Shown here: positions 567-41,096 of the stretch, one piece after another
Numbering within the stretch: position 1 is the first letter of the stretch
Layout: each line of letters opens with the position of its first letter
Assembly (NCBI RefSeq): GCF_019145375.1
Contig: NZ_JAHSTX010000001.1
Coordinates: forward strand, 781,001-845,000
DNA: 64,000 nucleotides
Reading direction: 5' to 3'
From: Pseudomonas triticicola
GTDB lineage: Bacteria; Pseudomonadota; Gammaproteobacteria; Pseudomonadales; Pseudomonadaceae
Position numbers and translations under genes: made by a program
The notes under the pieces: generated by a model
What the model was told of the DNA's origin: nothing
The model's input: the letters and a program-made list of their open reading frames with translations, nothing else
Database searches by the model: none

Positions 567-643
567 GCGCCCGTAGCTCAGCTGGATAGAGCATCCGCCT
601 TCTAAGCGGATGGTCGCAGGTTCGAGTCCTGCCGGGTGCGCCA
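567..643 (+). tRNA. tRNA-Arg (anticodon TCT)
   Basis: A 77-nt cloverleaf with acceptor GCGCCCG pairing CGGGTGC, a D arm (AGCTCAGCTGGATAGAGC), an anticodon stem CCGCC/GGCGG-type around TCT at 601-603, the T-loop TTCGAGT, and an encoded CCA at 641-643. It reads AGA codons. It is the first gene of an Arg-His-Leu-His cluster. Confidence 0.96.
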
Positions 644-675
644 TTAGGCAGCTTTGGCACAAGTAACGCGATATG

Positions 676-751
676 GTGGGCGTAGCTCAGTTGGTAGAGC
701 ACGGGATTGTGACTCCCGTTGTCGTGGGTTCGATCCCCATCGTCCACCCCA
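676..751 (+). tRNA. tRNA-His (anticodon GTG), copy 1
   Basis: A cloverleaf with acceptor GTGGGCG/CGTCCAC, anticodon GTG inside CGGGATTGTGACTCCCG, T-loop TTCGATC and an encoded CCA at 749-751. The extra G at 675 would supply the G-1 identity base of tRNA-His opposite discriminator C. An identical copy lies at 971-1046. Confidence 0.96.
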
Positions 752-761
752 TATTTCGAAA

Positions 762-790
762 GGCGCCAGATTTAACGGTCTGGCGCCTTT
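762..790 (+). terminator. Intrinsic terminator-like hairpin after tRNA-His copy 1
   Basis: GGCGCCAGA and TCTGGCGCC form a 9-bp stem with an 8-nt loop, followed by a short T-run (TTTGCTTT). It is repeated almost exactly after the second tRNA-His. Confidence 0.7.
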
Positions 791-808
791 GCTTTAAAAG
801 CTTCATCC

Positions 809-893
809 GCGGATGTGGTGGAATTGGTAGACACACTGGATTTAGGTTCCAGCGCCGCGAGGCGTAAGAGTTCGAGTCTCTTCATCCGCACCA
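809..893 (+). tRNA. tRNA-Leu (anticodon TAG)
   Basis: An 85-nt class II tRNA: acceptor GCGGATG/CATCCGC, anticodon stem CTGGA/TCCAG with loop TTTAGGT (anticodon TAG), a long variable arm (GCCGCGAGGCGT region), T-loop TTCGAGT, and an encoded CCA at 891-893. Confidence 0.96.
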
Positions 894-970
894 AATAAAG
901 CTTCATCTGTGCCTCCGGCCTGATGAAGTTTCAACAAAGAAGTTGTTTGGCTTTTTTGTTACGCAATATG

Positions 971-1046
971 GTGGGCGTAGCTCAGTTGGTAGAGCACGGG
1001 ATTGTGACTCCCGTTGTCGTGGGTTCGATCCCCATCGTCCACCCCA
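971..1046 (+). tRNA. tRNA-His (anticodon GTG), copy 2
   Basis: Identical in sequence to the tRNA at 676-751, again with G at position -1 (970) and an encoded CCA at 1044-1046. The identity extends into both flanks, including the terminator hairpin, so it looks like a duplication of the whole transcription cassette. Confidence 0.96.
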
Positions 1047-1447: not shown

Positions 1448-2758
1448 ATGCAAGTTTCTGTTGAAAATACTACTGCTCTCGAGCGCCGCATGAGCGTCAC
1501 CGTGCCGGCAGAGCGCATCGAGACTCAGGTCAACAAGCGTCTGCAGCAGACTGCCCAAAAGGCCAAAATTGCTGGCTTCCGTCCAGGCAAAGTGCCAATG
1601 AGCGAAATCAAGCGCCGTTTCGGTGCTGATGCGCGTCAGGAAGCGGTAGGCGACGTCATCCAGTCTTCCTTCTACGAAGCTGTGGTCGAGCAGAAGCTCA
1701 ACCCTGCCGGTTCGCCTTCGATCGAGCCAAAGTCGCTCGAAGCGGGCAAGGATCTGGAATACGTTGCTGTATTCGAAGTCTTCCCTGAGTTCACCGTTGC
1801 TGGCTTCGAAGGCATCACCGTTGAGCGTCTGAGCGCTGAAGTGGCTGACGCTGACCTGGACAAGATGCTCGACATCCTGCGCAAGCAGAACACCCGTTTC
1901 GAAGTGGCAGACCGTGCTGCCCAGAACGAAGATCAGTTGAACATCGATTTCGTTGGCAAGGTTGACGGCGAAGTGTTCGCTGGCGGCTCCGCCAAGGGCA
2001 CTCAGCTGGTACTGGGTTCCGGCCGCATGATCCCGGGCTTCGAAGAAGGCCTGGTTGGCGCTAAGGCTGGCGAAGAGCGCGTTCTGAACCTGACCTTCCC
2101 TGAGGACTATCAGAACCTGGACCTGGCTGGCAAAACCGCCGAGTTCACCGTGACCGTCAACACTGTGTCCGAGCCTAAGCTGCCTGAGCTGAACGAAGAG
2201 TTCTTCGCTCAATTCGGCATCAAGGAAAGCGGCATCGACGGTTTCCGCACCGAAGTTCGCAAGAACATGGAGCGTGAACTGCGTCAGGCGATCAAATCCA
2301 AGGTCAAGAATCAGGTCATGGACGGTCTGCTGGCCACCAACCCGATCGAAGTGCCAAAGGCTCTGCTGTCCAACGAAGTTGACCGTCTGCGCGTGCAGGC
2401 TGTTCAGCAGTTCGGCGGCAACATCAAGCCAGACCAACTGCCGGCCGAGCTGTTCGAAGAGCAAGCCAAGCGCCGCGTCGTGCTGGGTCTGATCGTTGCT
2501 GAAGTGGTCAAGCAGTTCGACCTCAAGCCTGACGAAGCTCGCGTTCGCGAAATGATTCAGGAAATGGCTTCCGCTTACCAGGAGCCTGAGCAGGTCGTGT
2601 CGTGGTACTACAAAAACGAGCAGCAACTGAACGAAGTGCGTTCGGTTGTGCTGGAAGAACAAGTTGTGGATACTGTTCTGCAGAAAGCTAGTGTGACCGA
2701 CAAATCGGTCTCCTACGAAGAAGCAGTCAAGCCGGTAGAAGCTCCAGCAGCCGACTGA
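1448..2758 (+). CDS. tig: Trigger factor, ribosome-associated chaperone and prolyl isomerase
   Basis: A 436-residue cytosolic chaperone that binds the ribosomal exit tunnel and shields nascent chains. Domain order is standard. The N-terminal ribosome-binding domain carries the signature [16 protein letters not shown] (about residues 44-59, including the exit-site loop). An FKBP-type PPIase domain follows around residues 160-245 ([28 protein letters not shown]), then the long helical substrate-binding C-terminus. Length matches the family. The start at 1448 is chosen because GAGGAA lies 7-12 nt before it and the protein begins [14 protein letters not shown]; an in-frame ATG at 1385 lacks family support. 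It is first in the tig-clpP-clpX-lon quality-control block. Confidence 0.97.
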
Positions 2759-2783
2759 TTGATTTTGCGTTAGAAGTGCACAC

Positions 2784-2811
2784 CATAAGCCAGCTCTCGA
2801 GCTGGCTTATG
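2784..2811. other. Long stem-loop between tig and clpP
   Basis: CATAAGCCAGCTC and GAGCTGGCTTATG form a 12-13 bp stem with a 2-4 nt loop, 25 bp after tig. No T-tract follows, so it is more likely an mRNA processing or stability element, or an attenuator, than a full terminator. Confidence 0.5.
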
Positions 2812-2850
2812 CGTATTCAAGACATAACTATTTGGGAGCGCCTGCAGAGC

Positions 2851-3486
2851 ATGTTCCGTAATTCTTATATTCAGCAGAACTCTGATATCCAGGCCGCTGG
2901 CGGCCTGGTCCCGATGGTTGTCGAGCAGTCCGCTCGTGGCGAACGCGCCTACGACATCTACTCGCGCCTGCTCAAGGAGCGAGTGATCTTTCTGGTGGGC
3001 CCGGTAGAGGACTACATGGCCAACCTGATCTGTGCGCAACTGCTGTTCCTTGAAGCGGAAAACCCGGACAAGGACATCCATCTGTACATCAACTCGCCGG
3101 GCGGTTCGGTGACTGCCGGCATGTCGATCTACGACACCATGCAGTTCATCAAGCCGAACGTGTCGACCACCTGCATCGGTCAGGCCTGCAGCATGGGCGC
3201 ATTCCTGCTCACCGCAGGTGCACCGGGCAAGCGTTTCTGCCTGCCGAACTCGCGCGTGATGATTCACCAGCCACTGGGTGGGTTCCAGGGCCAGGCGTCG
3301 GACATCGAAATCCACGCCAAGGAAATCCTCTTCATCCGCGAGCGTCTGAACATGCTGATGGCCAAGCACAGCGGCCGTACTCTGGAAGAAATCGAGCGCG
3401 ACACCAATCGCGACAACTTCATGAGTGCCGAAGCTGCGAAGGAATACGGCCTGATCGACGAAGTGATCAACCAGCGTCCAGCTTAA
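2851..3486 (+). CDS. clpP: ClpP, ATP-dependent Clp protease proteolytic subunit
   Basis: A 211-residue serine protease that forms the tetradecameric barrel fed by ClpX or ClpA. Catalytic residues are visible: Ser114 in GQACSMGA, His139 in [12 protein letters not shown] and an Asp near residue 188 in [11 protein letters not shown]. The short N-terminal stretch [18 protein letters not shown] fits a cleaved propeptide. I chose the ATG at 2851 by family alignment; upstream in-frame ATGs at 2776 and 2809 fall in the palindromic leader. It is followed 112 bp later by clpX, its unfoldase partner. Length and spacing are those of other pseudomonads. Confidence 0.97.
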
Positions 3487-3535
3487 TATAAGCAGCGCAA
3501 AACAGGCCTGATCGGCATGTCCGATCAGCGGCGGG

Positions 3536-3565
3536 CTTGAAAAAGCCCGCAATAGCCTTCATCTT
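3536..3565 (+). promoter_or_regulatory. Candidate sigma-32 (heat-shock) promoter of clpX
   Basis: CTTGAAA at 3536-3542, a 15-bp spacer, then CTTCATCT at 3558-3565, against the sigma-32 consensus CTTGAAA-N11-16-CCCCATnT. The -35 lies in the loop of a hairpin (GCGGGCTT/AAGCCCGC, 3531-3550) in the clpP-clpX gap. Confidence 0.45.
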
Positions 3566-3598
3566 GTGTTGCAAGCCTATCGGATTTGGATCGAACGA

Positions 3599-4882
3599 AT
3601 GACTGACACCCGCAACGGCGAGGACAACGGCAAGCTGCTCTATTGCTCCTTCTGTGGCAAAAGCCAGCATGAAGTGCGCAAATTGATTGCCGGCCCCTCG
3701 GTCTTTATCTGCGACGAGTGCGTCGACCTGTGCAATGACATCATCCGCGAGGAGGTGCAGGAAGCACAGGCCGAAAGCAGCGCGCATAAATTGCCTTCGC
3801 CTAAAGAAATCAGCGGCATCCTTGACCAGTACGTCATTGGTCAGGAGCGTGCGAAAAAGGTTTTGGCCGTAGCGGTGTACAACCACTACAAGCGCCTGAA
3901 CCAGCGTGACAAAAAGGCTGACGACGTCGAACTCGGCAAGAGCAACATCCTGCTGATCGGCCCGACAGGCTCCGGTAAAACCCTGCTGGCCGAAACACTG
4001 GCCCGCTTGCTGAACGTTCCGTTCACCATCGCTGACGCAACTACCCTCACCGAGGCAGGTTACGTGGGTGAAGATGTCGAGAACATCATTCAGAAGCTGC
4101 TGCAGAAGTGCGATTACGACGTAGAGAAAGCCCAGATGGGCATTGTCTACATCGACGAAATCGACAAGATTTCCCGCAAGTCCGACAACCCGTCGATCAC
4201 CCGTGATGTTTCCGGTGAAGGCGTGCAGCAGGCCTTGCTCAAGTTGATCGAAGGCACGGTCGCTTCGGTACCGCCGCAAGGTGGCCGCAAGCATCCGCAG
4301 CAGGAGTTCCTGCAGGTCGACACCCGTAACATCCTGTTCATCTGCGGTGGTGCGTTCTCCGGCCTGGAAAAGGTCATTCAGAACCGTTCCACCAAAGGCG
4401 GCATCGGCTTCAACGCCGAAGTGCGCAGCAAGGAAGAGGGCAAGAAGGTTGGTGAATCCCTGCGTGAAGTCGAGCCTGACGATCTGGTCAAGTTCGGTCT
4501 GATCCCGGAATTCGTCGGTCGTCTGCCGGTCCTGGCGACACTGGACGAGCTCGACGAGGCTGCGCTGATGCAAATCCTCACCGAGCCGAAAAATGCTCTG
4601 ACCAAACAGTATGCCAAGCTGTTCGAGATGGAAGGCGTGGATCTGGAATTCCGTTCCGACGCGCTGAAATCGGTCGCCAAGCGTGCCCTGGAACGTAAAA
4701 CCGGTGCCCGTGGCCTGCGTTCGATTCTCGAAGGTGTGCTGCTCGACACGATGTATGAGATCCCCTCGCAGTCCGAGGTGAGCAAAGTCGTGATCGATGA
4801 AAGCGTGATCGAAGGCAAGTCCAAGCCACTGTATATCTACGAAAACAGTGAGCCGACGGCCAAGGCAGCGCCGGACGCGTAA
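3599..4882 (+). CDS. clpX: ClpX, ATP-dependent unfoldase of the ClpXP protease
   Basis: A 427-residue AAA+ ATPase that recognises tagged substrates, unfolds them and threads them into ClpP. The N-terminal Cys4 zinc-binding domain is complete (CSFCGK at about residue 18, CDECVDLC at about residue 38). Walker A is GPTGSGKT (about residue 122), Walker B is VYIDEID, and the C-terminal small domain contains the arginine block [13 protein letters not shown]. The ClpP-binding loop region is present between them. The start at 3599 (MTDTRNGED) follows family length; an upstream ATG at 3566 would add 11 unconserved residues. Confidence 0.97.
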
Positions 4883-4906
4883 GCGTTCACAGCGCCGCAA
4901 CAAAGA

Positions 4907-4932
4907 AGGGGCCTTCGGGCCTCTTTTTTTTT
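4907..4932 (+). terminator. Intrinsic terminator after clpX
   Basis: A 7-bp stem AGGGGCC/GGCCTCT closed by a TTCG tetraloop and followed by eight or more T residues. It separates clpX from lon. Confidence 0.9.
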
Positions 4933-4958
4933 AAGTCGTTTTTTACCTCCGCTTTGCG

Positions 4959-4987
4959 CTTGTTTTTTTTCGAGGCAGCCCCCATCT
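4959..4987 (+). promoter_or_regulatory. Candidate sigma-32 promoter of lon
   Basis: CTTGTTT (4959-4965), a 14-bp spacer, then CCCCATCT (4980-4987), which is a full match to the sigma-32 -10 consensus. It lies 58 bp before the lon start codon. Confidence 0.55.
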
Positions 4988-5045
4988 TGGTTTCAAGCTT
5001 AATTCCATCTGATTACGGCCATACGGCCGCCGTAGAGGCGAAATC

Positions 5046-7442
5046 ATGAAGACAACCATCGAATTGCCTCTCCTGCCATTGCGTGATGTCGTGGTTTATC
5101 CGCACATGGTTATCCCGCTGTTCGTGGGGCGCGAGAAATCCATCGAAGCCCTCGAGGCCGCGATGACGGGTGACAAGCAGATTCTGCTGCTGGCCCAGAG
5201 AAACCCGGCTGACGATGATCCCGGTGAAGACGCTCTCTATCGCGTAGGTACGATTGCCACGGTTCTGCAACTGCTGAAGCTGCCTGACGGCACCGTCAAG
5301 GTTCTGGTCGAAGGCGAGCAGCGTGGCACTGTCGAGCGCTTCAGCGAAGTCGATGGCCATTGCCGCGCCGAAGTGTCTCTGATCGAAGAAGTCGACGCCG
5401 CCGAGCGTGAGTCGGAAGTCTTCGTGCGCACACTGCTTTCGCAGTTCGAACAATACGTTCAGCTGGGCAAGAAGGTTCCGGCTGAAGTCCTGTCGTCGCT
5501 CAACAGCATCGATGAGCCCGGTCGTCTGGTCGACACCATGGCCGCGCATATGGCGCTGAAAATCGAGCAGAAGCAGGAAATCCTCGAGATCATCGATCTG
5601 TCGGCCCGTGTCGAGCACGTGCTGGCACTGCTGGATGCCGAAATCGATCTGCTGCAGGTTGAAAAACGCATTCGCGGTCGCGTCAAAAAGCAAATGGAGC
5701 GCAGCCAGCGCGAGTACTACCTGAATGAGCAGATGAAGGCCATTCAGAAAGAACTCGGCGACGGCGATGAAGGCCACAACGAAATCGAGGAGCTGAAAAA
5801 GCGCATCGATGCTGCCGGCCTGCCGAAAGATGCGCTGGCCAAAGCCACTGCCGAGCTGAACAAGCTCAAGCAGATGTCGCCGATGTCGGCTGAGGCAACC
5901 GTGGTGCGCTCCTACATCGACTGGCTGGTGCAGGTACCGTGGAAGGCGCAAAGCAAAGTACGTCTCGACCTGGCTCGTGCAGAAGACATTCTCGACGCCG
6001 ATCACTACGGTCTCGAAGAGGTCAAGGAGCGCATCCTTGAATACCTCGCCGTGCAGAAGCGCGTGAAGAAAATCCGTGGCCCGGTGTTGTGCCTGGTCGG
6101 TCCTCCAGGTGTGGGTAAAACCTCGCTGGCGGAATCGATTGCTCACGCAACCAACCGTAAATTCGTACGTATGGCCTTGGGCGGCGTGCGTGACGAAGCG
6201 GAAATTCGTGGTCACCGCCGGACCTACATCGGTTCGATGCCGGGAAGATTGATTCAAAAGATGACAAAAGTGGGCGTACGCAACCCGCTGTTCCTGCTCG
6301 ATGAAATCGACAAGATGGGCAGCGACATGCGTGGGGATCCTGCGTCGGCGTTGCTGGAAGTGCTTGATCCCGAGCAAAACCACAACTTCAACGATCACTA
6401 TCTGGAAGTCGATTACGACCTGTCCGATGTGATGTTCCTGTGCACCTCGAACTCGATGAACATCCCGCCAGCGCTGCTGGACCGGATGGAAGTCATCCGT
6501 CTGCCGGGTTACACCGAAGACGAGAAGATCAACATCGCCGTTAAATACCTCTCGCCGAAACAGATCGCCGCTAACGGTCTGAAGAAGGGCGAGCTGGAAT
6601 TCGATGAGGAAGCGATCCGCGACATCATCCGTTATTACACCCGTGAAGCGGGCGTGCGGGGCCTCGAGCGACAGATCGCCAAGGTCTGCCGCAAGGCAGT
6701 GAAAGAGCATGCGCTGGAAAAACGCTTCTCGGTAAAAGTGACAGCTGACTTGCTCGAGCATTTCCTTGGTGTGCGCAAGTTCCGCTACGGCCTGGCCGAG
6801 CAGCAGGATCAGGTGGGGCAGGTGACTGGCCTAGCGTGGACACAGGTGGGCGGCGAATTGCTGACCATCGAAGCCGCAGTGATTCCGGGTAAAGGGCAGC
6901 TGATCAAGACCGGTTCGCTCGGTGATGTGATGGTCGAATCGATCACTGCCGCACAGACCGTTGTGCGCAGCCGCGCCAAGAGCCTGGGCATCCCGCTGGA
7001 CTTCCACGAGAAGCGCGACACGCACATTCACATGCCGGAAGGTGCTACGCCGAAAGACGGCCCTAGCGCTGGCGTGGGCATGTGCACCGCACTGGTCTCG
7101 GCTTTGACCGGTATTCCGGTGCGCGCCGACGTCGCCATGACCGGTGAGATCACTCTGCGTGGGCAAGTGCTGGCAATTGGCGGTTTGAAAGAAAAACTGC
7201 TGGCGGCACATCGCGGCGGTATCAAGATTGTGATTATTCCGGAAGAAAACGTCCGCGATCTGAAGGAGATTCCTGACAATATCAAGCAGGATCTGCAGAT
7301 CAAACCGGTTAAATGGATTGACGAGGTCCTGCAAATTGCGCTGCAATACGCGCCGGAGCCCTTGCCGGATGTGGCTCCGGAGATAGTTGCCAAGGACGAA
7401 AAACGCGAGTCTGATGCCAAGGAAAGAATTAGCACGCATTAA
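5046..7442 (+). CDS. lon: Lon protease
   Basis: A 798-residue ATP-dependent serine protease that degrades misfolded and short-lived regulatory proteins in the cytosol. The N-terminal LON substrate-binding domain starts at ELPLLPLRDVVVYPHMVIPL. A long helical linker follows, then the AAA+ domain with Walker A GPPGVGKT (about residue 355) and Walker B FLLDEIDKM. The C-terminal protease domain has catalytic Ser674 in DGPSAGVG and the Lys of GGLKEKLLAAHRGG (about residue 717). Length is typical. A purine-rich GAGGCGAAATC precedes the ATG. It has its own terminator-bounded unit and a heat-shock-like promoter. Confidence 0.98.
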   Translation: MKTTIELPLLPLRDVVVYPHMVIPLFVGREKSIEALEAAMTGDKQILLLAQRNPADDDPGEDALYRVGTIATVLQLLKLPDGTVKVLVEGEQRGTVERFSEVDGHCRAEVSLIEEVDAAERESEVFVRTLLSQFEQYVQLGKKVPAEVLSSLNSIDEPGRLVDTMAAHMALKIEQKQEILEIIDLSARVEHVLALLDAEIDLLQVEKRIRGRVKKQMERSQREYYLNEQMKAIQKELGDGDEGHNEIEELKKRIDAAGLPKDALAKATAELNKLKQMSPMSAEATVVRSYIDWLVQVPWKAQSKVRLDLARAEDILDADHYGLEEVKERILEYLAVQKRVKKIRGPVLCLVGPPGVGKTSLAESIAHATNRKFVRMALGGVRDEAEIRGHRRTYIGSMPGRLIQKMTKVGVRNPLFLLDEIDKMGSDMRGDPASALLEVLDPEQNHNFNDHYLEVDYDLSDVMFLCTSNSMNIPPALLDRMEVIRLPGYTEDEKINIAVKYLSPKQIAANGLKKGELEFDEEAIRDIIRYYTREAGVRGLERQIAKVCRKAVKEHALEKRFSVKVTADLLEHFLGVRKFRYGLAEQQDQVGQVTGLAWTQVGGELLTIEAAVIPGKGQLIKTGSLGDVMVESITAAQTVVRSRAKSLGIPLDFHEKRDTHIHMPEGATPKDGPSAGVGMCTALVSALTGIPVRADVAMTGEITLRGQVLAIGGLKEKLLAAHRGGIKIVIIPEENVRDLKEIPDNIKQDLQIKPVKWIDEVLQIALQYAPEPLPDVAPEIVAKDEKRESDAKERISTH

Positions 7443-26909: not shown

Positions 26910-27665
26910 TCAGAACGGTGGCGATTGCTTGAGCAACTGCGCTGCCGGCGAGTCGGTCGGCCTGACCACCGCATAGTTGTAGCCCGGCCCTGACCAGTAA
27001 TCGGCCTGCAGATCGCCATCGCTGCGCGAGCCACGCGGCAGCAGGGTGTTTTTCGGCCCCGGTGGACGCAGGTAGAAACTGACCTTGTGGCCGCTGCCAT
27101 CCTCATACATCACCATCGCCGCCGCGCCTTCATCGGTGCTGAGCAAGCGCCCGCTGACCGGCTCGAATCCGGCAGCTTTCAAGTCCGGCAAGCGCCCGGC
27201 ACCGCTGAAGTAGCGGTCGAGCCAACGCTGCATGTCGCCGTCGCTGTCGACCTTGTAATCGGCGGGCAGTACGCCTTGCTGGGCGATCAGGCGATAGGCT
27301 TGCAACGCGTCAGTCATCGGCAATTGCGCAGGGCGCGCCAGGGTCATTTCCCGCGCCTGCCAGCCACTGAAACCGCCGACGCTGACGGCGATCAGCAACA
27401 CCGCCGCGCTGGCCAGATGCCGACGAGACTGCTGGCGGCGGCGCTGGCGAATCATCATCGGGTCGAGCGCCGGATTGGCCGGTTGCTGCAACGCGCCACT
27501 CAGCGCTGCGCGCAACTGTTGGGCATCGCGTTGCCAGGCGCGCACCTGCGCCGCTTCTTCGGGGTGGCTGGCCAGCCAGGTCTCGAGCACGCGCCGATCG
27601 GCGTCGCAGAGCTGGTGGTCGACGTAGGCGTGCAAATCACGTTCGCTGGGAGGCAGGCTGATCAT
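26910..27665 (-). CDS. Anti-sigma factor, single-pass membrane protein
   Basis: A 251-residue membrane anti-sigma factor. The N-terminal zinc-less anti-sigma domain (DLHAYVDHQLCDADRRVLETWL, residues about 10-32; pairs with its sigma factor in the cytosol) is followed by a basic stretch RQRRRQQSRRH and one membrane helix at about residues 83-102. The periplasmic part (about 145 residues) resembles the sensor domains of RsiW/RseA-like anti-sigmas. Its ATG overlaps the end of the ECF sigma gene by 4 bp, so the two are translationally coupled. It should hold the sigma factor inactive until a periplasmic or membrane signal, probably oxidative given the target genes, arrives. Confidence 0.88.
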   Translation of the reverse strand: MISLPPSERDLHAYVDHQLCDADRRVLETWLASHPEEAAQVRAWQRDAQQLRAALSGALQQPANPALDPMMIRQRRRQQSRRHLASAAVLLIAVSVGGFSGWQAREMTLARPAQLPMTDALQAYRLIAQQGVLPADYKVDSDGDMQRWLDRYFSGAGRLPDLKAAGFEPVSGRLLSTDEGAAAMVMYEDGSGHKVSFYLRPPGPKNTLLPRGSRSDGDLQADYWSGPGYNYAVVRPTDSPAAQLLKQSPPF

Positions 27666-28168
27666 TTGAGTATCCGCAAGGAAGGGCTGCTGATTTCGCC
27701 GTCGCTGAGTTGGCGCAAGGCCTGGCGGGCGCGGGACAGGCGCGACATCACGGTGCCGATCGGGGCGCCGAGGATCTCGGCGACCTCTTTATAGGACAGG
27801 CCTTCCACCGAGACCATCAGCAGCAAAGCGCGCTGTTCGGTGGGCAGGCGTTCGAAGGCTTGCAGGGTCGACTGGGCGATTACCGTGCGTTCCACTGAGG
27901 GTTCGGCGTCGTCACGGCCGGTGAAAAATTCCAGCATCCGTGCATAGCGCCGCGAGCGACGGTGCGCATCGAGAAATTGCCGATAGAGAATTGCGAACAG
28001 CCAGGCGCGCAAGTCGCCCTCGGCGCGTTTCTCGCCCCAGGCCGACAGCGCCCGCTCGAGGCTGGCCTGGACCAGATCGTCAGCGCTGCTGCTGTTGCGC
28101 GTCAACGACACGGCGAAGCGGCGCAATCTGGGAATGATTTCTCTCAACTGTTCGTCGAATTCGCTCAT
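27662..28168 (-). CDS. ECF RNA polymerase sigma factor
   Basis: A 168-residue extracytoplasmic-function sigma factor. Region 2 is LRRFAVSLTRNSSSADDLVQASLERAL (residues about 15-41) with AWLFAILYRQFLDAHR. Region 4 is LPTEQRALLLMVSVEGLSYKEVAEILGAPIGTVMSRLSRAR (residues about 108-148). The start at 28168 (MSEFDEQLREI) gives typical length; a long upstream extension in the same frame crosses the divergent gene and is not real. An ECF-like promoter 34 bp upstream suggests autoregulation. It is co-transcribed with its anti-sigma and divergent from the catalase/cytochrome b561 genes. Confidence 0.94.
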   Translation of the reverse strand: MSEFDEQLREIIPRLRRFAVSLTRNSSSADDLVQASLERALSAWGEKRAEGDLRAWLFAILYRQFLDAHRRSRRYARMLEFFTGRDDAEPSVERTVIAQSTLQAFERLPTEQRALLLMVSVEGLSYKEVAEILGAPIGTVMSRLSRARQALRQLSDGEISSPSLRILK

Positions 28169-28201
28169 GAATTTCTGCTGGTCGCTACGCTGTGGACTAG
28201 G

Positions 28202-28228
28202 AAGACGCCCGTCAGCGCAGGTTATTCC
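28202..28228 (-). promoter_or_regulatory. ECF-type promoter reading into the sigma/anti-sigma genes
   Basis: On the minus strand GGAATAA (28228-28222), a 14-bp spacer, then CGTCTT (28207-28202), 34 bp before the sigma start codon. Spacing and both boxes equal those of the opposite promoter. Confidence 0.7.
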
Positions 28229-28256
28229 CCGTGCGCAAAAATAAATACCGCGCCGT

Positions 28257-28283
28257 GGAATAAACCCGGATGGGGTGCGTCTT
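28257..28283 (+). promoter_or_regulatory. ECF-type promoter reading into the catalase gene
   Basis: GGAATAA (28257-28263), a 14-bp spacer, then CGTCTT (28278-28283), 42 bp before the catalase start. The AAC-like -35 and CGTC -10 are typical of ECF promoters. Confidence 0.7.
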
Positions 28284-28324
28284 GCTGACTCTTTCCACTT
28301 GTGGCCGATGGCCTGGAGATATTC

Positions 28325-29431
28325 ATGGTTGATCGCTCGTCCCCCAACGCTGCACCGCCCGGCAGGCCGCCGCGCCAGCCACTGAGCGCCGCGAGCCTGG
28401 TCTTTCGCCTGGGCGGCATTGCCGTGATTGTCGCCGCCGTGGCCGGGGCGTTTGCCTACGTGCATGGCAACCTTGACCCACAACGATTGACGCCAAAAGC
28501 GTTGGTCGATGTGCTGGAAAAGAACAACGGCGTGCATCCCGGTTTCCGCCGCAATCACGCCAAGGGCGTGTGCGTGATCGGCCATTTCGAAAGCAGCGCC
28601 GAGGCGCGCGCGTTTTCCACCGCGCAAGTGTTCAATCTGCCGCAGACGCCGGTGGTGGGGCGTTTCGCCTTGCCGGCGGGCAATCCCTATGCGCCGGACA
28701 GCGCCGTACCGATCCGCAGCCTGGCGCTGCGCTTCACCCAGGCGAACGGTCAGCAATGGCGCACCGGCATGAACAGCATGCCGGTGTTTCCGGTGGGCAC
28801 GCCTGAAGCGTTCTACCAATTGCAGCAGGCGCAGTCGCCGGATCCAGCCACTGGCAAACCCGACCCGACGAAGGTGCCGGCGTTCTTCGCTGCACACCCG
28901 GAAGCCGTGCCGTTCTTGACGTGGGTGAAGACCGCCAAGCCTTCGGCCAGCTACGCCACCGAAACCTATAACAGCATCAATGCGTTCTATCTGGTCGATG
29001 GCAACGGTAAAAAGCAGGCCGTGCGCTGGAGCATGACCCCGTTGGCGCAGGACGCGGCAGGTGCCACGGCCCCTGAAGGCGCAGACTTTCTCGAGAAGGA
29101 CTTGGTGCAACGTCTGGCCGCCGCACCCTTGCGCTTCCAGTTGAACATCACCCTGGCCAACGCCGACGACCCGGTCAACGATGCCAGCAAGACCTGGCCC
29201 GCAAATCGCAAAGTGCTGAACGCCGGGACTTTGGTGCTGGAGAAAACCCAGCCGCAGCTCAGCGGTGAATGCCGCGACATCAACTACGACCCGCTGGTGC
29301 TGCCGGCCGGGATTCAAGGCTCGGCAGATCCACTGCTGGCCGCGCGTTCTGCCGGCTACGCCGATTCCTACCTGCGTCGCACCAGCGAAGTCAGCCAGTT
29401 GCCCGCCGCCAAACAGGAGGCTCGTCCATGA
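28325..29431 (+). CDS. SrpA-like small catalase / catalase-related peroxidase
   Basis: A 368-residue heme catalase-fold protein, shorter than true catalases. An N-terminal membrane helix or signal anchor (about residues 24-45) places the domain in the periplasm. The distal His region is GVHPGFRRNHAKGVCVIGHF. The C-terminal heme block NYDPLVLPAGIQGSADPLLAARSAGYADSYLRR contains the proximal Tyr. SrpA-type proteins decompose peroxides with weak catalase activity. The ATG at 28325 has GGAGAT before it; an ATG eight codons earlier lacks a site. Its stop overlaps the ATG of the cytochrome b561 gene, which suggests that b561 delivers electrons to it as a membrane peroxidase. Confidence 0.9.
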   Translation: MVDRSSPNAAPPGRPPRQPLSAASLVFRLGGIAVIVAAVAGAFAYVHGNLDPQRLTPKALVDVLEKNNGVHPGFRRNHAKGVCVIGHFESSAEARAFSTAQVFNLPQTPVVGRFALPAGNPYAPDSAVPIRSLALRFTQANGQQWRTGMNSMPVFPVGTPEAFYQLQQAQSPDPATGKPDPTKVPAFFAAHPEAVPFLTWVKTAKPSASYATETYNSINAFYLVDGNGKKQAVRWSMTPLAQDAAGATAPEGADFLEKDLVQRLAAAPLRFQLNITLANADDPVNDASKTWPANRKVLNAGTLVLEKTQPQLSGECRDINYDPLVLPAGIQGSADPLLAARSAGYADSYLRRTSEVSQLPAAKQEARP

Positions 29432-29973
29432 ACAAGCAACCGACGCATTTCGTTTTGCTGGCGCGCCTGCTGCACTGGCTGATGGCGCTGATGATCATCG
29501 CCATGCTGTTTATCGGCGCGGGCATGGTCACTTCGGTGTCGTCTCGCCATGAATGGCTGATTCATTTGCACAAGCCGCTGGGCATCGCGATTCTGGCGCT
29601 GGTGATCGTGCGCCTGCTGGTGCGCTTCACCACCCGCCAACCGCCGCTGCCGGATGATCTGCCGGGCTGGCAGGTGTTGGCAGCCAAGGCTTCCCACGTC
29701 TTGTTGTATGCGTTGATGCTGGTGTTGCCGCTGCTCGGCTGGGCGATGATCAGTGCCTCGGGCGAGCCGGTGATGCTCACGGCGTCGCTGCATCTGCCGT
29801 CGATTGTGCCGGCTGACGCGCAACTGTTTGCGGTGCTGCGCAAGTCCCATGGCTATCTGGCGTATCTGCTGTTTCTGACGGTGCTGCTGCACCTGGCGGC
29901 GGCGCTGTTTCATGGCTGGGTACGTCGTGACGAAGTGCTCGACAGCATGTTGCGCGGGCGCGATCGCGGCTGA
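29428..29973 (+). CDS. Cytochrome b561 (diheme membrane electron carrier)
   Basis: A 181-residue four-helix membrane protein of the prokaryotic b561 family. Helices lie near residues 8-32, 42-62, 88-108 and 140-162. Heme-ligand histidines are visible in LLHWLMAL (residue 16), HLHKPLG (residue 48) and HGYLAYLLFLTVLLHL near the end. Family members pass electrons from the quinone pool to periplasmic partners or act as superoxide:ubiquinone oxidoreductases. Its start overlaps the catalase stop by 4 bp, so the pair is co-translated under the ECF-type promoter. Confidence 0.92.
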   Translation: MNKQPTHFVLLARLLHWLMALMIIAMLFIGAGMVTSVSSRHEWLIHLHKPLGIAILALVIVRLLVRFTTRQPPLPDDLPGWQVLAAKASHVLLYALMLVLPLLGWAMISASGEPVMLTASLHLPSIVPADAQLFAVLRKSHGYLAYLLFLTVLLHLAAALFHGWVRRDEVLDSMLRGRDRG

Positions 29974-31184: not shown

Positions 31185-31459
31185 AATCGCTTCCAGAGCA
31201 GGATTTTTATGACCGGTACTTTACACGCAGGCAGGGCTGAAACCGAGGGGAATTGCGGGCGTAGCGGGGGGCGTCTTCCGTGACGCGCCAGCAGCTTAGA
31301 GGCTATGCGATTGATTCTCAAGTGCTGATTGCCATTAGTTTTGCCCAATGTGGCCGGGCTCGGCTTGCCAATCAATATTCTTTTGATATTATCCGCGCCA
31401 TCGAATTTGCAGCACCCCAAGACTTCATTAGCCTGAAGACACAAGCCCGAAAAACGGGC

Positions 31460-31571
31460 AAAAAAAGACCCGGCAAAAAGCCGGGTCAAAAACCGTGATT
31501 AGCCTGATGAGGAGATAGTCCAGAAGACCGACCTAAGGTCTCTGGTCCATCGACTGATCTCGCGACCAGCT
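31460..31571 (-). ncRNA. prrF: PrrF iron-responsive small RNA
   Basis: About 112 nt on the minus strand. The 5' part contains GCTGGTCGCGAGATCAG, close to the P. aeruginosa PrrF start as I remember it. The centre has CTCCTCATCAGGCTAATCACG, the conserved antisense core that pairs with mRNAs of non-essential iron proteins. The 3' end is the terminator GACCCGGC/GCCGGGTC followed by T7 (31466-31460). It is preceded by a Fur-box/promoter overlap, as expected of a Fur-repressed RNA made in iron starvation. Ends are predicted. Which of the two PrrF copies of the genome this is cannot be told here. Confidence 0.88.
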
Positions 31572-31577
31572 GCTTGC

Positions 31578-31606
31578 AATAATAATCATTATCATTTGCA
31601 AGTCAA
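31578..31606 (-). promoter_or_regulatory. prrF promoter overlapped by a Fur box
   Basis: On the minus strand TTGACT (31606-31601), 16 bp, TATTAT (31584-31579). The Fur-box-like AATGATAATGATTATTATT (31596-31578) covers the spacer and -10, against consensus GATAATGATAATCATTATC. The -35 overlaps the stop codon of the upstream gene. Confidence 0.8.
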
Positions 31607-40691: not shown

Positions 40692-40727
40692 GGATGCAGT
40701 GATAGAGAGACGAATTGCAGAAAGCAC

Positions 40728-41096
40728 AAAGGGGAGCCGAAGCTCCCCTTTAATTTGTCGTTGCGTGCTCTTTTTATTATTGAGGGTCGGTCTGTTGTTG
40801 TTTTTGGCAACCGTGGCCCTGTACAGCTTTTTGGCGACCCCCATCCGGGGTCAAGAGCAAACGTATTTTTTTGAGCGCTGATCTGCTTTCTCGTTTAACG
40901 ATCCAACCGATTCGGGAGCTACCTGAAGGTAGTTTTATTGTTCTCTGCCCGGTTGCGGGTCACTCCTGAGAGCACCCTGAAAAGCATACCTTCTCCAAAA
41001 AAATCTGTTAGCTGCGTCTCTGCCGTGTTGTTCTTGTTATGTCAGAGTCGTTACGTCTTGTTTTTATTGGTTTGCGGCTTTTTATTCTTGTTATGC
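40728..41096 (-). ncRNA. crcY: CrcY, catabolite-repression small RNA (Hfq/Crc sponge)
   Basis: About 370 nt on the minus strand, from the sigma-54 promoter to the hairpin AAAGGGGAGC/GCTCCCCTTT with a TTCG loop (40728-40751). It contains at least six A-rich Hfq-binding motifs of the AAnAAnAA type, for example ACAAGAATAAAAA, CAATAAAAACAAG, ATAACAAGAACAACA and CAACAACA. CrcZ/CrcY-class RNAs use these to titrate Hfq-Crc and lift carbon catabolite repression. Length and the position beside the HMG-CoA lyase gene fit CrcY of P. putida as I recall it; CrcZ lies elsewhere (cbrB-pcnB). No protein-coding frame is credible here. Transcript ends are predicted. Confidence 0.85.

Follow-up and report, generated by a model that had tools for sequence, protein, structure and literature searches.

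A putative envelope peroxide-defence switch in Pseudomonas: twin predicted promoters connect an ECF26-like sigma factor to a catalase/cytochrome b561 pair

Extracytoplasmic function (ECF) sigma factors of the ECF26 group have a promoter consensus of GGAATA at -35 and GT at -10, and their anti-sigma factors in Sinorhizobium meliloti (EcfR) consist of an N-terminal anti-sigma domain, a membrane helix and a periplasmic domain (PMC6180224). RpoE1 and RpoE4 of S. meliloti are induced upon sulfite generation, and rpoE3 and rpoE6 are said not to be (PMC3511301). As ECF26 contexts or targets, these two papers name a lipoprotein, a serine protease, a YceJ-family protein and sulfite oxidation, and no catalase/cytochrome b561 pair (PMC6180224, PMC3511301). 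Here we analysed a 64,000-nucleotide stretch of Pseudomonas triticicola contig NZ_JAHSTX010000001.1 (the window), in which the genes of an ECF sigma factor and its anti-sigma factor are divergent from those of a catalase-fold protein and a cytochrome b561. Comparison of this locus with its relatives supports well the control of both operons by the one sigma factor. On balance we lean, if only slightly, towards an envelope peroxide-defence switch, in which the sigma factor with its twin promoters would drive its own operon and a two-protein quinol peroxidase.

Two other described systems resemble parts of the locus. In Bradyrhizobium, the class 16 pair EcfF/OsrA drives an oxidative-stress response that includes periplasmic repair enzymes (PMC3420878). 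An ECF/anti-sigma pair is common to both systems; unlike here, OsrA is a DUF1109 protein of six helices in which two cysteines are functionally important (PMC3420878), and the window anti-sigma factor has no conserved cysteine. In Burkholderia, LcoA, a b561 protein, acts with the YceI lipocalin BcnA in defence against lipid peroxyl radicals, limiting lipid peroxidation; LcoA is proposed to reduce oxidised ubiquinone bound to its partner, and fused genes of this kind are reported in alphaproteobacteria (PMC9113575). LcoA/BcnA is the nearest functional parallel, a b561 gene adjoining that of a periplasmic antioxidant partner, but that partner is a lipocalin and no heme enzyme.

The window sigma factor (27662-28168, minus strand; 168 aa, regions 2 and 4) and the anti-sigma factor (26910-27665, minus strand; 251 aa) have the ECF26 layout. 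The cognate anti-sigma gene lies 3' of the sigma gene and encodes an N-terminal anti-sigma domain, a membrane helix and a periplasmic C-terminal domain, and the GGAATAA and CGTC boxes of the locus match the published consensus (PMC6180224). Thus, as with RpoE1, RpoE3, RpoE4 and RpoE6 of S. meliloti, a GGAATA/GT promoter is combined with a membrane anti-sigma factor encoded after the sigma factor, and, as with RpoE6, the target is divergent from the sigma gene (PMC6180224). The target itself, a catalase/b561 pair, sets the locus apart from the S. meliloti systems. In addition, the window sigma factor shares 42% identity over 151 residues with a sigma factor of pSymA, which adjoins a gene that looks serine-protease-like by eye, the layout described for RpoE6 (PMC6180224). 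From the promoter match, the anti-sigma plan and the pSymA match, we call the sigma factor ECF26-like.

An earlier note on this DNA reported GGAATAA-N14-CGTCTT twice in the 156-bp gap between the sigma and catalase genes (28169-28324), once on each strand. Both copies are exact: the predicted promoter of the sigma/anti-sigma operon lies at 28202-28228 on the minus strand and that of the catalase/b561 operon at 28257-28283 on the plus strand. Counted from the end of the CGTCTT box, the start codon of the sigma gene is 33 nt away (34 in the note) and that of the catalase gene 41 nt (42 in the note). The 4-bp overlaps it described, between the catalase and b561 genes and between the sigma and anti-sigma genes, are both present. 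No copy of the motif arose when the window was shuffled 100 times. The genome-wide search that the note had proposed returned exactly two sites in 5,820,959 bases, both in the divergent gap, and no third copy in the whole genome when spacers of 13-15 were allowed. With up to two mismatches the motif occurs at 73 places, against 68 for a reversed control pattern, so the relaxed search says nothing of a wider regulon. Elsewhere in the same genome, a one-mismatch GTAATAA-N14-CGTCTT (L004, G000:C1:745418) lies ~190 bp from a second sigma-like stretch (28% identical).

Within the genus, the comparison covered 80 loci, the best among 426 related ones, and by title all 80 come from Pseudomonas. The host itself is close to P. 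siliginis, and the catalases most similar to that of the window share 98-99% identity with it. On the catalase side, GGAATAA-N14-CGTCT is found in 79 of the 80 loci and GGATTAA-N14-CGTCT in the remaining one; on the sigma side, it precedes the sigma gene in all 66 loci where that gene was found. The spacer is 14 at every site on either side. The sixth base of the -10 box varies, so that the exact 13-base motif stands on both sides in just 8/80 loci in the raw scan. The gene overlaps are similarly constant, with 4 bp in 78 of the 80 catalase/b561 pairs and in all 64 sigma/anti-sigma pairs that could be measured (the other 16 could not). An A/T tract, AAAAATAAA (28237-28245, assigned to no strand), lies between the two -35 boxes; it is conserved in the genus, has similar counterparts in L133-L142 of the phylum-wide set described below and was not seen in L144, and it might act like an UP element. 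Directly 5' of the catalase ribosome-binding site, a GGCC-N3-GGCC leader repeat (28303-28313, plus strand) is present in 79/80 loci with constant arms and eight different loops; its predicted fold is no more stable than those of shuffled sequences.

In 14 of the 80 loci, no sigma gene was found within the 4-kb flank. In all 14, a cassette of three genes, co-oriented with the catalase gene, lies 5' of it and encodes an AMP-binding enzyme, a membrane protein (reductase-like by eye, with no Pfam match) and an enoyl-CoA hydratase, and the catalase promoter motif is retained in every one of them. In two split loci analysed at full length (L131 and L132), the sigma operon lies on the far side of the cassette and has a promoter motif of its own, so that both motifs are kept. 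Since the motifs persist in cassette-split loci, neither promoter depends on the two being neighbours. The cassette lies between the operons in L028-L030, L034-L039, L045, L046, L051, L057, L083, L131 and L132; the enoyl-CoA hydratase is present in every one of these except L131, where it was not seen among open reading frames of at least 120 aa.

Across the phylum, a sample of 398 genomes gave 45 catalase matches at E <= 1e-40, spread over 39 genomes, with at most five candidates scored per genome. A cognate sigma/anti-sigma pair lies beside the catalase gene in 16 of the 45 loci (L133-L148). GGAATA with a properly spaced CGTC is found in 15 of these 16 loci vs none of the other 29, where the view spanned ~5 kb per side for 14 rechecked loci and ~2 kb for 15. 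The sole exception among the 16 (L143/L192) has GGAATAA with a degenerate -10, and among the 29, L164 lies beside another sigma factor (37% identical). Fisher's test gives p = 5e-11 for the association, ignoring the relatedness of the genomes; because the sampled genomes are related, contrasts between near relatives weigh more. In one genus (g118), the motif is present in two loci with the sigma factor and absent from one b561-linked locus without it, as well as from two distant homologues. In one family (f26), sigma factor and motif occur together in one locus and neither occurs in four. Three Pseudomonadaceae genomes have a second catalase/b561 copy (L163, L167 and L168), in each case with neither sigma factor nor motif.

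Promoter number tracks operon shape. In divergent loci, the motif is found on both sides in 13/13, with the start of L140 set at its conserved methionine and with L145 counted despite the CGTT before its sigma gene. Of three co-directional loci, ordered sigma, anti-sigma, catalase, b561, two have it before the sigma gene and none before the catalase gene. The proposal of the earlier note that one sigma factor controls both operons thus gains strong comparative support from the tracking of motif and sigma factor, from operon topology and from the cassette-split loci, and comparison gives good support to a predicted regulon of two operons under an ECF26-like sigma factor.

The effector genes are a SrpA-type minimal catalase, of the kind annotated 'catalase family peroxidase' (28325-29431, plus strand; 368 aa, PF00199 match), and a cytochrome b561 with conserved histidines (29428-29973, plus strand; 181 aa). 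A b561 gene adjoins the catalase gene in 36 of the 45 phylum homologues, which comprise all of the 30 best loci and six of the remaining 15, and the 4-bp overlap recurs in 25 of the 30 best. Catalase/b561 pairs that have no sigma match within ~4 kb also occur on annotated plasmids of Pantoea, Roseomonas, Variovorax, Methylobacterium and Streptomyces. From this spread, the pair is probably older than the sigma switch.

By sequence, Escherichia coli CybB (5oc0) is the sole PDB relative of the window b561 at E <= 0.001, and its best NCBIfam match is cybB, at 65 bits under a cut-off of 170. The quinone region of CybB includes H87, H151, H158, D164, R59, R63, D154 and R169, and its superoxide-collecting residues are R30, R35, R38, R108 and K134 (PMC11869295). 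We aligned 31 b561 sequences (A4) to it. The membership of the b561 family is shared, with the aligned histidines H13, H137, H151 and H158 conserved, and so is most of the quinone site: H151, H158, D164, R59 and R63 are identical in 31/31, and H87 is present in 29. The superoxide-collecting positions differ. All 31 have Met for R30 and none a basic residue for R108, and in 20 Arg takes the place of K134. The loop of R35 and R38 never carries more than two basic residues and usually carries one; at least one Arg or Lys is found in 23/31, in 17 of those 23 at position 40, directly beside the aligned R38. The complete superoxide cluster of CybB is thus absent from the 31 sequences, in which a weaker cluster remains that may still allow superoxide chemistry. 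The quinone end of the b561 is largely intact and its periplasmic end changed, and, unlike CybB, it is encoded with a periplasmic partner enzyme.

These features bear on the alternative that the two proteins are parallel scavengers, with the b561 acting as a CybB-like superoxide oxidase that converts superoxide to O2 and passes the electron into the quinone, and the catalase-like protein destroying peroxide separately, without electron transfer between the two. The kinship with CybB in the PDB and NCBIfam searches, the extent to which the quinone site is conserved and the basic residue retained in most R35/R38 loops all agree with such a division of labour. On the other hand, the Met at R30, the loss of a basic residue at R108 and a loop with usually a single basic residue speak against it, and the constant pairing of the b561 with an anchored heme enzyme would go unexplained. 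We consider this alternative rather unlikely.

The catalase-fold protein belongs to the SrpA-like branch by its PF00199 domain, its fold, a distal His78 and a proximal Arg341/Tyr345, with Asn150 as the further heme-pocket residue in the alignment. Its best structural match is a SrpA-like minimal catalase, the 33-kDa protein of Mycobacterium avium paratuberculosis (3e4w/3e4y), which we take to be MAP-2744c. Unlike that protein, the window protein has an N-terminal hydrophobic helix (residues 22-46) that would anchor it in the membrane, a pair of cysteines and a b561 partner. A hydrophobic segment (best 19-residue mean 1.4 to 3.0) opens each of the 35 b561-linked catalases whose N-terminus is complete. 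In most of them AFAY/AFAW..GW comes next; by eye there is no signal-peptidase site, and we read these proteins as anchored N-terminally. Among the nine catalases without b561, eight start with what by eye resembles a cleavable signal peptide, and L164 looks anchored. In this group, L169-L172 and L174-L177 have signal-peptide-like starts, and L169 and L171 have Gly at the aligned distal His. Cys83 and Cys316 are both present in 42 of 44 scorable catalases and both absent from the other two; their co-occurrence therefore suggests a disulfide, which agrees with a periplasmic location.

The active site was compared in an alignment (A3) of the window protein and 36 of the 44 other phylum catalases, leaving out L135-L137 and L140 (near-duplicates), L163, L169, L173 and L177. 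Arg146, near the distal Asn, is present in 30/30 b561-linked catalases vs one of seven others. Classical heme catalases generally keep the distal Asn family-wide; here it is replaced by Ile, Leu or Val in 10 of the 30 b561-linked members, and sequence alignment places Gln at this position in the solved M. avium paratuberculosis protein. This bears on a second alternative, in which the protein is an anchored true catalase or peroxidase and the b561 serves another purpose, for example the rescue of inactive oxidised heme rather than turnover. Against it, a third of the b561-linked members lack the distal Asn, and the best structural match is reportedly an organic-hydroperoxide peroxidase with negligible catalase activity. 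We regard such an arrangement as unlikely.

The best reading of the pair, in our view, is that the b561 would feed quinol electrons to the catalase-fold protein, because the gene pairing in 36/45 loci, the membrane anchor, the largely conserved quinone site and the reduced superoxide cluster all fit it. Several observations pull the other way. Nine of the 45 catalase homologues have no b561 beside them, among the 45 no catalase-b561 fusion was seen, and catalases beside other sigma factors (L124 and L164) lack b561. In the b561 alignment, CybB D154 is Ala in 31/31 and R169 is Arg in just two. The hydrophobicity values of the anchored and signal-peptide groups overlap, so that scores alone do not separate them. 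Loss of the distal Asn is not peculiar to the catalase/b561 pair, since three of the seven members without b561 lack it too, and the window catalase retains this residue and could have catalase activity. Lastly, a Cupriavidus plasmid (L130) encodes a related sigma factor (63% identical) and anti-sigma factor (45%) with no catalase within its 8.5 kb; the link between sigma factor and catalase is therefore not universal. As to the L124 locus itself (2275-5972, Paraburkholderia), it holds a sigma factor, two unnamed proteins and the catalase, all on one strand.

The earlier note also had the anti-sigma factor sense a periplasmic oxidant, a claim that finds no backing in its sequence: cysteine is absent from 21 of 25 anti-sigma sequences, and the four that contain one have no position in common (alignments A1, n=25, and A5, n=24). 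Zinc anti-sigma (ChrR/ZAS) proteins have a conserved H-x3-C-x2-C zinc motif, which is missing here, as no cysteine is conserved among the 25. Matches to Pfam zf-HC2 are weak (three of 25 at E <= 0.01, 20 at E <= 10), and among the matches listed none is above the cut-off. The window protein would have cytoplasmic helices at 1-63, one hydrophobic stretch near 84-103 (by eye; poorly modelled) and a periplasmic beta domain at ~136-251. The predicted fold of this domain resembles the C-terminal domain of RseB/MucB, a likeness for which profile comparison gave no confirmation of homology.

With regard to the signal, sulfite or another non-oxidant might be sensed, as by RpoE1 and RpoE4 of S. meliloti, and the pair might detoxify a product of that chemistry. 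The promoter does match the ECF26 consensus (PMC6180224), and RpoE1 and RpoE4 are induced by sulfite generation (PMC3511301), but the genes at the locus include no sulfite-oxidising enzyme, and we hold this to be improbable. The position of both copies within one short intergenic gap might suggest a palindrome of chance or structural origin and no promoter pair, but this is barely credible given the conserved boxes, the exact spacing, the association with the sigma factor and the persistence after the cassette split.

We therefore return to the envelope peroxide-defence switch. In this model, the ECF26-like sigma factor and the membrane anti-sigma factor would form one operon, and two back-to-back copies of one promoter would drive this operon and the divergent catalase/b561 operon, two steps that our comparisons support. 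An envelope signal may inactivate the anti-sigma factor, and the freed sigma factor would then amplify its own gene and make the effector pair. The effector would be not a free catalase but a SrpA-type heme peroxidase tethered to the inner membrane on its periplasmic side. The b561, co-translated with it, would draw electrons from quinol at a quinone site on the cytoplasmic side and hand them through the membrane to the heme of the peroxidase, where H2O2 or organic or lipid hydroperoxides may be reduced.

Outside the locus, the window holds a PrrF small RNA (Rfam RF00444, 158 bits; 31459-31606, minus strand) ~1.5 kb past the b561 gene, a CrcZ small RNA (RF01675, 368 bits; 40697-41094, minus strand) and four tRNA genes (Arg, His, Leu, His; 567-1046, plus strand).

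In the literature searched, which lay outside subscription journals, no paper on the catalase/b561 pair was found. The novelty lies in the combination of an ECF26-like switch, an anchored SrpA-type catalase and a b561. More broadly, and only tentatively, SrpA and b561 might constitute an unrecognised respiratory two-protein quinol:peroxide oxidoreductase on the outer face of the inner membrane, distributed from Proteobacteria to Streptomyces and placed under a dedicated ECF26-like sigma factor in several proteobacterial families; its anti-sigma factor, with a ChrR-like N-terminus and an RseB-like periplasmic fold, might sense oxidised envelope lipid or lipoprotein and not peroxide. Many 'catalase family peroxidase' genes carry the catalase name, and our analysis suggests that their b561-linked branch is tethered to the membrane and wired to the quinone pool. 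If this is true, quinol electrons would be spent on envelope peroxides through a catalase fold, the ECF26-like switch would offer a clean two-operon genetic handle, and the ECF26-like factor would gain a target set in Pseudomonas.

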